A program made the position numbers and the translations under genes. DNA of 64,000 nt from the NCBI GenBank assembly GCA_029782025.1, contig JAKOVR010000119.1:1-64000 (forward strand), read 5' to 3'. The notes below the pieces were generated by a model. It ran no database searches. It was not told where the DNA came from and worked only from the letters and a program-made list of their open reading frames with translations. Source of the DNA: Actinomycetes bacterium (GTDB taxonomy: Bacteria > Actinomycetota > Acidimicrobiia > Acidimicrobiales > Acidimicrobilacustridaceae). Positions 5,296-57,734 of the stretch are shown here, piece by piece. Each line of letters starts with the position of its first letter. The first letter of the stretch is position 1.

Positions 5296-6256
5296 ACCAC
5301 ACCATCGACATCGTGGACGTCAGCAGGAAGAGCACGAGCGCGCCCCCGATGAACCACGTGGAGATCTCACGCTCCTCGTTGACGTAGCCCACCGACGAGC
5401 CGATGTCGGCGTAGACGTCCTTGAGCTGTCCCTCCGAAGCGGCGGCGAAGTAGGTGCCGCCGGTCTGCTCGGCCAGCGCCTTCAACGCGTCGCGGTCGAC
5501 CGGCACGGGCACCCGGCGCCCGCTGACCGGGTCCTGGATGATCCCGCCGTCGGTCCCGAAGGCGATGGTCGACACCGGGATGTTGAGGTCGCGGGCCACA
5601 GCGCCGGCGTCCTCGTTGGGGCGGCCGGAGGTGGTGTGCCCGTCGGACATGAGGACGATCCGGGCCGGAGCGGTGGTGCCCTGCTCGTCGGGGGGCACGC
5701 TGCGGATGGCGTCGATGCTGGCGTAGACGGCCTCCCCGATGGCCGTGCGCTCGCCCAGCTCGAGGTCGGCGATGCCCTGCTTCAACCGCTCGTGGTCGGT
5801 GGTGGGCGGGACCTTGAGGATGGCGTTGCCGGAGAACGCCACCAGCCCGACGTTGAGCTTCGGGGGCAGCAGGTCGACGAACGAGGACGCCGCGACCTTG
5901 GCGGCGTCGATCCGGGAGGGCGACACGTCGGTGGCGTCCATGGAGAGCGACACGTCGAGGGCCATGATCACGGTGGCCCGCTCCCGGGGGACCCGCTCCT
6001 GGTGGACGGGGCGGGCGAACCCCACCACCAGGGTCCCGAGCGCCAGCAGGAAGATGATGGCCGGCAGGTGCCGGCGCCACCCGGGGCGCTTGGGGGCGAT
6101 CGACGCCAGCAGGTCGACGTTGGTGAAGCGGACGGCGTAGGTGCGGCGCCGGCCCTGGAGGACCATGTAGACCGCCGCCAGCGCGACCACGGCGAGGAGG
6201 AGGCCGAGGCGCTCGGGGTTGAGGAAGCCGCTGAGGGTGCTGTCGAGCCAGCTCAT
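5279..6256 (-). CDS. von Willebrand factor A domain membrane protein (BatA-like)
   Basis: This 325-residue protein has two N-terminal membrane helices (about residues 13-31 and 61-80), a vWA domain and a C-terminal helix, the layout of BatA/BatB-type proteins. The metal-ion-dependent adhesion site is visible as ALDVSLSMD (DxSxS) with a later threonine and the MSDG motif. Such domains bind protein partners through a divalent cation. The start is the ATG that overlaps the DUF58 stop in an ATGA, giving tight translational coupling; an upstream in-frame ATG would run into DUF58 and is less likely. It is the last gene of the moxR-DUF58-vWA operon. By analogy the MoxR ATPase would act as a chaperone remodelling this vWA protein; the substrate here is unknown. 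Confidence 0.88.
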   Translation of the reverse strand: MSWLDSTLSGFLNPERLGLLLAVVALAAVYMVLQGRRRTYAVRFTNVDLLASIAPKRPGWRRHLPAIIFLLALGTLVVGFARPVHQERVPRERATVIMALDVSLSMDATDVSPSRIDAAKVAASSFVDLLPPKLNVGLVAFSGNAILKVPPTTDHERLKQGIADLELGERTAIGEAVYASIDAIRSVPPDEQGTTAPARIVLMSDGHTTSGRPNEDAGAVARDLNIPVSTIAFGTDGGIIQDPVSGRRVPVPVDRDALKALAEQTGGTYFAAASEGQLKDVYADIGSSVGYVNEEREISTWFIGGALVLFLLTSTMSMVWFNRLP

Positions 6257-56471: not shown

Positions 56472-56891
56472 TCAGATGTAGGCCGGGTCGTCGTCGGCGG
56501 CGTACACGAACTCGTGCACCGCTTCGGGCCCGACGAGGCGCTCGAGGACGTTGCCGTCGTGGTCGGCCAAGAGCGTGGTGGGCGCCCGCTTGACCTCGTA
56601 CCGGTCGCCGAGGTCGAGCTCGACGGTGGCGTCGATCGTGCGCACGGCGTGGTGCGGGAAGGCCTCGGCGAGGATGCGCTCGACGTGCTCGCACGACGCG
56701 CACCACGGCGTGGAGAAGATCAGCCAGGTGCACGGGGCGCCGGCGGCCAGGTGGACGGCCGGGACCTCGGGCCAGCAGGTGCCCTCGTTGGCGCCGCCGA
56801 GGGCGGCGTCGGCGGCGAGGCCCCGCCGGTAGCGCAGGGCGAGCACGGCGACGGCGATCCCGAGGATGACGACGATGGCGAGGCGGTCCAC
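56472..56891 (-). CDS. membrane-anchored thioredoxin-like protein
   Basis: A 139-residue protein with an N-terminal signal-anchor helix (LAIVVILGIAVAVLAL) and a thioredoxin fold with the active-site CxxC in STPWCASCEHVERIL, the cis-proline in RAPTTLLAD and a C-terminal helix. It faces the extracytoplasmic or membrane-proximal side if the anchor is N-in. GTG starts 1 base after the DUF4395 stop, so both are cotranscribed. Likely a thiol oxidoreductase; partner unknown. Confidence 0.85.
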   Translation of the reverse strand: MDRLAIVVILGIAVAVLALRYRRGLAADAALGGANEGTCWPEVPAVHLAAGAPCTWLIFSTPWCASCEHVERILAEAFPHHAVRTIDATVELDLGDRYEVKRAPTTLLADHDGNVLERLVGPEAVHEFVYAADDDPAYI

Positions 56892-56892
56892 C

Positions 56893-57333
56893 TCAGGCCG
56901 CCAGCTTCACGCCGGACCGGCGGGCCCACCACAGGTACATCTCGCAGCCCACGCAGATGCCGCTCGACGCGGCCAGGCCGGCCAGGACGGCGACGATCAG
57001 GCTGAGGATCCAGCCCGCCGTGCTGGCGCCGAGCACGAAGGCGACCGTGGCGCTGCCCAGGAAGATCACGCCGACGGTGGCGGCGAAGCGGGGCGGGCGT
57101 GGGTCCTCGAGCTCCTTCGGGGGGCCCAGGCGAGGCTTGACGACCTCGACGTAGAGGCGGAGGAAGGGCCCGTACCGCGGCCCGAACGCGGCGCCGAGGA
57201 ACAGCACGACGGCGAAGACCGGGGCCACGGCCGGCACCTGGAACAGGTAGCCGAGCACCAGCGCGGTGGCGAGCACGCTCTGGTTGAAGCGGGGCCCTCG
57301 CGGGTCGATCGGGGCGGGGGTGCCTTCCTTCAT
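56893..57333 (-). CDS. DUF4395 membrane protein
   Basis: A 146-residue protein with four hydrophobic segments: FNQSVLATALVLGYLFQVPAV region, VAPVFAVVLFLGAAFG, FAATVGVIFLGSATVAFVLG and ILSLIVAVLAGLAASSG. The opening IDPRGPRFNQ and CVGCEMYLWWAR near the end are DUF4395 features. The late CxxC could form or exchange a disulfide with the thioredoxin-like partner encoded downstream. Function unknown. Its ATG lies 6 bases from a TAGACT box. Confidence 0.85.
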   Translation of the reverse strand: MKEGTPAPIDPRGPRFNQSVLATALVLGYLFQVPAVAPVFAVVLFLGAAFGPRYGPFLRLYVEVVKPRLGPPKELEDPRPPRFAATVGVIFLGSATVAFVLGASTAGWILSLIVAVLAGLAASSGICVGCEMYLWWARRSGVKLAA

Positions 57334-57339
57334 GACAGC

Positions 57340-57345
57340 AGTCTA
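57340..57345 (-). promoter_or_regulatory. -10 box (TAGACT) for the DUF4395/thioredoxin operon
   Basis: On the minus strand TAGACT ends 6 bases before the ATG at 57333; leaderless transcription predicted. An IscR-like palindrome abuts it upstream. Confidence 0.6.
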
Positions 57346-57369
57346 AACCCGACTCGTCCGGTCGGGTAT
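57345..57369. promoter_or_regulatory. IscR-type-1-like 25-bp palindrome over the DUF4395 promoter
   Basis: Half sites AAACCCGACT and GGTCGGGTAT are separated by 5 bases. The E. coli IscR type 1 consensus, as I recall it, is ATASYYGACT, five bases, AGTCRRSTAT; two of the 20 half-site bases differ here. The site spans the -10/-35 interval of the minus-strand promoter, where a bound repressor would block it. An Rrf2-family iron-sulfur, NO or redox regulator is the natural candidate; none is encoded in this window. Confidence 0.5.
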
Positions 57370-57421
57370 TCCCGGGCGCGGTCGGGCCGGAATCGGCGCC
57401 GGGACGCGGGGTCGTGGGCGG

Positions 57422-57427
57422 TAGCAT
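57422..57427 (+). promoter_or_regulatory. -10 box (TAGCAT) for ylxP-rbfA-truB
   Basis: TAGCAT ends 10 bases before the ylxP ATG; no Shine-Dalgarno. Confidence 0.5.
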
Positions 57428-57437
57428 CGACGATCCC

Positions 57438-57734
57438 ATGGCTGTGCACGTGCTCGCCCTCACCGTGGACCTGCGCCTGCCGGCCTGCCATTCCTTGAAA
57501 GACAAGCGGGCCGTGGTCCGCACCATCGTGGAGGGTGCTCGCCACCGGTTCTCGGTGGCGAGCGCCGAGACCGGCCACCAGGACTCGTGGCAGCGGGCCG
57601 AGCTCGGCTTCGCCGTCGTGTCCGGCACCGTGGCCGTCGCCGAGGAGGTCATGGCCGCGGTCGACCGGTTCGTGTGGTCGTTCCCCGAGGTAGAGGTCCT
57701 GTCGACCGCCCACCACTGGACCGACACCGGCTGA
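57438..57734 (+). CDS. YlxP/DUF503 family protein
   Basis: A 98-residue protein with LTVDLRLPACHSLKDKRAVV and ARHRFSVASAETGHQDSW, the DUF503 signature. Family members lie between infB and rbfA in many bacteria, as here, and are presumed to assist ribosome assembly, though the role is not proven. Confidence 0.9.
   Translation: MAVHVLALTVDLRLPACHSLKDKRAVVRTIVEGARHRFSVASAETGHQDSWQRAELGFAVVSGTVAVAEEVMAAVDRFVWSFPEVEVLSTAHHWTDTG

Follow-up and report, generated by a model that had tools for sequence, protein, structure and literature searches.

A 25-bp palindrome located directly upstream of a gene pair encoding a DUF4395 membrane protein and a thioredoxin-like protein raises the question of which regulator would bind there, and which genes that regulator would control. 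The window, i.e., the whole stretch of DNA that was analyzed, covers 64,000 nucleotides of an Actinomycetes bacterium from the order Acidimicrobiales. The original prediction assigned the palindrome to the IscR type 1 operators and linked the gene pair to iron-sulfur (Fe-S), NO or redox sensing. We propose, with a probability of about 0.77, that the palindrome serves as operator for a sulfur regulon which a single Rrf2-family protein (the C28 type) controls, and which is repressed when sulfur is sufficient.

The palindrome and the DUF4395-thioredoxin promoter

The features of the locus are the following:

57345 to 57369, no strand assigned: operator, a 25-bp IscR type-1-like palindrome and predicted Rrf2 binding site (minus strand ATACCCGACCGGACGAGTCGGGTTT), conserved ahead of 45 of 61 DUF4395 genes
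57363 to 57368, minus strand: weak predicted -35 region TACCCG, read from the sequence, within the operator
57340 to 57345, minus strand: predicted -10 element TAGACT, overlapping the operator by a single base, with 6 bases between it and the ATG; the order operator, -10, ATG is repeated in many relatives
56893 to 57333, minus strand: DUF4395 membrane protein, 146 aa, with an invariant C127-x-G-C130 (Pfam PF14340, E 2.5e-39)
56472 to 56891, minus strand: thioredoxin-like protein with WCASC and a hydrophobic N-terminus (probable anchor), the downstream gene of the pair (Pfam PF00085, E 1.2e-5)

The letters at 57345-57369 are AAACCCGACT-CGTCC-GGTCGGGTAT, with perfect 7-base arms (ACCCGAC/GTCGGGT) spaced by seven bases. 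When compared to the 25-bp IscR type 1 consensus of PMC3899308 in its printed form, ATASYYGACTRWWWYAGTCRRSTAT, the palindrome agrees at 20 of 25 positions on either strand, the disagreements being two half-site and three spacer positions. It is the best-scoring 25-mer of the window (20, with the runner-up at 17), which places it in the IscR type 1 class; the original prediction had named this class and counted the same two half-site differences. Taken alone, the palindrome is not significant, because the GC-rich window contains 24 perfect 7-N7-7 palindromes. Its significance comes from conservation rather than from palindromic form; it is a conserved site, at which a gene regulator probably docks. 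A CsoR/CstR-type operator, prompted by ATACCC...GGGTAT, was also considered and dropped, as the GAC half-sites, the 25-bp frame and the profile fitted Rrf2.

Reading along the minus strand, 6 bases separate TAGACT (57345-57340) from the DUF4395 ATG at 57333, which makes a leaderless transcript plausible. The operator fills the spacer between the -35 and -10 elements, as originally predicted, and a protein bound at 57345-57369 would occlude the promoter.

The identity of the gene pair agreed with the prediction: the upstream gene belongs to DUF4395 (135 bits against a Pfam cut-off of 24.5) and its partner carries a thioredoxin domain. Structure prediction gave a confident six-helix model for DUF4395 (pLDDT 92.8). 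No significant match to this model was found in the PDB, and the likeness to the best entry, CcmC (E 0.17, TM 0.38), was set aside as not significant. Nor did we find a paper on the function of DUF4395 in the open-licence literature, where the family is mentioned only in passing. Two types of DUF4395 protein were recognized (alignment A1; L016, L073, L077), one short, with IDPRGPRFNQ, the other longer, with an additional C-terminal C-x-x-C (VCERCxD), and the operator can occur ahead of both. At 56472-57734 of the window, an otherwise plus-strand cluster of translation genes is interrupted by the pair, which lies on the minus strand with infB on one side and a DUF503 gene (ylxP-like) on the other; infB also adjoins DUF4395 in the relatives G004 and G012.

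Conservation of the site and the genes behind it

Genomes were scanned by sequence pattern only, using a set of 80 (the window's own genome and 79 relatives). The first pattern, TACCCGACN7GTCGGGTW with at most one mismatch, matched in 17 of the 80 genomes; the site lies directly upstream of DUF4395 in the own genome and in G003, G004, G005, G008, G012, G066 and G074, adjacency being judged against an independent search for the DUF4395 family. A degenerate motif, WWWCCYGACYNNNNNRGTCRGGWWW, with at most three mismatches was then applied to 61 DUF4395 upstream regions from the family and the order, and 45 of these contained it, although many of the 45 come from close relatives and are not independent events. 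The background rate at this threshold was 0.07% in shuffled and 0.33% in random genomic segments. Among the 45 sites, position 4 is always C or G, position 6 always C or T, and positions 7-8 always GA. Across the 80-genome set the degenerate motif found sites in 58 genomes, against none for a reversed-pattern control. These scans demonstrate that the operator is conserved, an outcome on which the original prediction had made itself depend.

The half-site has drifted in the g12 genus to TTGTCGA or TTGTTGA, while C/G at position 4, GA at positions 7-8 and the spacing were kept; in this clade the outer half-site holds a TTGTCG-like -35 box, better than TACCCG. Most of the nearest named relatives are Acidimicrobiales metagenome-assembled genomes; in these, the site is present in the DUF4395 promoters, either as such or drifted. 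In a phylum sample of 296 genomes (22 from the window's order and 274 others), exact sites were found in 10, all within the window's order, and neither the 274 other genomes nor the control yielded an exact site.

With at most two mismatches, the own genome contains five sites, compared to zero for the reversed-pattern control:

Site 1, at 57345-57369: ahead of DUF4395-thioredoxin
Site 2: ahead of cysD, followed by a cysN-like frame
Sites 3 and 4, in tandem at C93:26706-26765 (L168 about 5707-5766): ahead of a ferredoxin-type sulfite reductase gene, followed by cysH
Site 5: ahead of a rhodanese-ThiF (MoeZ-like) gene

A third weak match in the own genome (C164) was set aside, since it seems to fall within a coding region. 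Over all genomes, 67 of the 73 distinct fetched sites with at most one mismatch (about 90%) stand just before sulfur-assimilation, cysteine/methionine or peroxiredoxin genes, at about -50 to +110 bp; the reference genes were drawn from the same loci, so that this tally is descriptive and its singletons are circular. The genes, whose families were identified by Pfam for representatives, are metY-like O-acetylhomoserine sulfhydrylase (17), sulfite reductase (16), rhodanese-ThiF (7), peroxiredoxin (7), cysD (5), DUF4395 (5), cysK/M (3) and TauD (3), with one each for rhodanese, siroheme, cysH and carbonic anhydrase. Two of the six remaining sites precede a TSUP/TauE-like permease (by our own reading of the protein, weakly seen by NCBIfam), and one precedes an amino-acid-type ABC binding protein. 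Judged by site positions, the genes form a regulon of cysteine and sulfur metabolism, as expected of CymR.

Both the own genome and several relatives (L105, L107, L109, L118, L123, L148) have tandem operators about 35-45 bp apart before sulfite reductase, which suggests cooperative or graded control. Peroxiredoxin and carbonic anhydrase genes stand behind the operator in several relatives (L152 1575-2153; L149, L153, L154, L158, L163, L166), a hint that the regulon is connected with redox or bicarbonate. Three good operator matches (L102, L104, L164) have no evident adjacent sulfur gene.

The original prediction expected the motif to recur at suf or other Fe-S genes. It does recur at an Fe-S enzyme, the siroheme-4Fe-4S sulfite reductase behind the tandem sites; the sufB region has no site (best match with 6 mismatches), which sets these genes apart from an IscR regulon with isc/suf control. 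The proposed link of DUF4395-thioredoxin to Fe-S assembly or NO is not supported, because sufB and the NsrR-like genes lack nearby sites and the targets are genes of sulfate assimilation, cysteine/methionine synthesis and sulfur transfer.

The candidate regulator and competing readings

The own genome encodes four full-length Rrf2 proteins, a family whose absence would have spoken against the original prediction; two are NsrR-like with three cysteines, by our own reading of the sequences. The likely regulator of the operator is the 145-aa Rrf2 protein encoded on contig C28. This type is found with 65-81% identity across nearly all relatives and in nearly all site-bearing genomes, and it is the only Rrf2 above the Pfam cut-off in ten of the latter (G010, G015, G016, G028, G048, G049, G050, G057, G066, G070). 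Four genomes (G062, G063, G072, G073) have neither the C28 type nor a site. As exceptions, G031 and G033, both 80-82% complete, carry sites and no C28-type match, and several genomes with the C28 type have no site at one mismatch, partly from motif drift. The distribution of the site agrees with that of the C28 type; we infer direct binding, repression and a sensed signal. The three further Rrf2 proteins of the own genome count against this assignment.

The candidate belongs to the Rrf2 superfamily (rrf2_super 114.8 bits against a cut-off of 73.3) and falls below the equivalog cut-offs of both IscR (91 against 207.55 bits) and CymR (87.8 against 195 bits). Its nearest solved structures are those of T. 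potens IscR (the entry says BadM/Rrf2, which we take to be this protein), B. subtilis CymR and E. coli IscR. The DNA-binding domain is near-invariant and contains YLEQ, as in IscR and CymR. IscR ligates its cluster by three cysteines, together with a histidine; all 30 aligned C28-type orthologues have two invariant cysteines (CDHEGQC) and an invariant Asp8, with no third invariant cysteine. In S. coelicolor NsrR, Asp8 serves as a ligand of the cluster (PMC5411485), and this residue and the two cysteines make cluster binding by the C28 type possible. No operator was found at the Rrf2 genes of the own genome or at 30 orthologous C28-type loci, which also speaks against the assignment.

These features bear on an IscR/SufR-type operator of Fe-S homeostasis or NO response, whose regulator would control Fe-S assembly or NO defence including DUF4395-thioredoxin. 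The 20/25 fit to the type 1 consensus, the IscR structures among the best matches, and the two cysteines with Asp8, as in NsrR (PMC5411485), are in its favor; the genes behind the sites are those of sulfur assimilation, sufB and the NsrR-like genes are bare of sites, and the IscR score is 91 against a rounded cut-off of 208, which makes this reading unlikely. Still less probable is that the operator belongs to a second Rrf2 type, C175, which has no paired cysteines. Its gene directly follows DUF4395 on contig C92 of G045 (L093 872-1360, plus strand), and in several g12 genomes about 6 kb separate the two; however, the type is missing in about 17 site-bearing genomes, including the near-complete G016, G048, G049, G050 and G070, and its recognition helix is less IscR-like. 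It may act as a second, local regulator near DUF4395. A functionless chance palindrome, which the 24 similar palindromes in the window could suggest, has a negligible probability, as position and sequence are kept across families, the controls gave zero matches and the regulon is coherent; conservation already refutes it.

Under the proposed sulfur regulon, an Rrf2 dimer would sit on the operator when sulfur or cysteine is sufficient, covering the -35/-10 spacer and blocking RNA polymerase. When sulfur runs short, or a signal at the two cysteines is lost, the dimer would leave, allowing joint expression of DUF4395-thioredoxin, cysDN, sulfite reductase-cysH and the rhodanese-ThiF gene for sulfur transfer. 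Repression by promoter occlusion under sulfur sufficiency is most likely, by analogy with CymR, which works with a partner enzyme (PMC9338935). At the weakest step of the argument, the DUF4395-thioredoxin pair most likely acts in the membrane as a thiol or sulfane-sulfur relay for sulfur assimilation or transfer, because of the thioredoxin partner and of rhodanese neighbors in Propionibacteriales. More tentatively, the two-cysteine, IscR-like Rrf2 of Acidimicrobiales, with its invariant Asp8, might control sulfate assimilation from a type 1 operator by sensing thiol state or an Fe-S cluster, with DUF4395-thioredoxin as a membrane sulfur or electron relay of this pathway.

Relation to IscR, CymR and other systems

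We found no description of an Acidimicrobiales sulfur regulon, and no paper on Rv1287 together with Rrf2, in the open-licence literature; the sulfur regulon proposed here across the window's order, for which an operator is defined and a single candidate regulator named, is apparently undescribed. In Rhodococcus IGTS8, an Rrf2 protein is annotated as predicted regulator of sulfate adenylyltransferase, with a CymR-like role suggested (PMC8557817). Propionibacteriales encode DUF4395 with thioredoxin, rhodanese and DUF1416-like genes (by our own reading of the proteins), a pairing as seen here, whereas Actinomycetota outside the window's order have no exact operator copy in the phylum sample.

The system shares with IscR the 25-bp operator class with its S-Y-Y-GAC half-site, and the C28 type conserves Glu43 and Gln44 as a pair in its recognition helix, as well as the RG..GGY wing. 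Unlike IscR, it has two cysteines instead of three, scores below the IscR cut-off and would control a regulon other than Fe-S assembly, and no operator was found at its own gene. The C28 type has in common with CymR, the master regulator of cysteine metabolism in Bacillus and Staphylococcus, the Rrf2 fold, the YLEQ recognition helix and a regulon of sulfur, cysteine and methionine genes. CymR itself binds DNA in complex with CysK. The C28 type differs by its score below the curated CymR cut-off (88 against 195), its two invariant cysteines in the C-terminal region, and the presence of genes for sulfate reduction (cysDN, cysH, sulfite reductase), of rhodanese-ThiF and of DUF4395 behind its sites. 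The original prediction therefore named the operator class correctly, and the target appears to be a CymR-like sulfur regulon instead of suf or NO genes, which would place the uncharacterized DUF4395 family and its thioredoxin in sulfur metabolism. Operator class and regulon are separable: naming such sites 'IscR' from the motif alone would mislead, because here a site of the IscR type 1 class goes with sulfur assimilation and not with Fe-S assembly.
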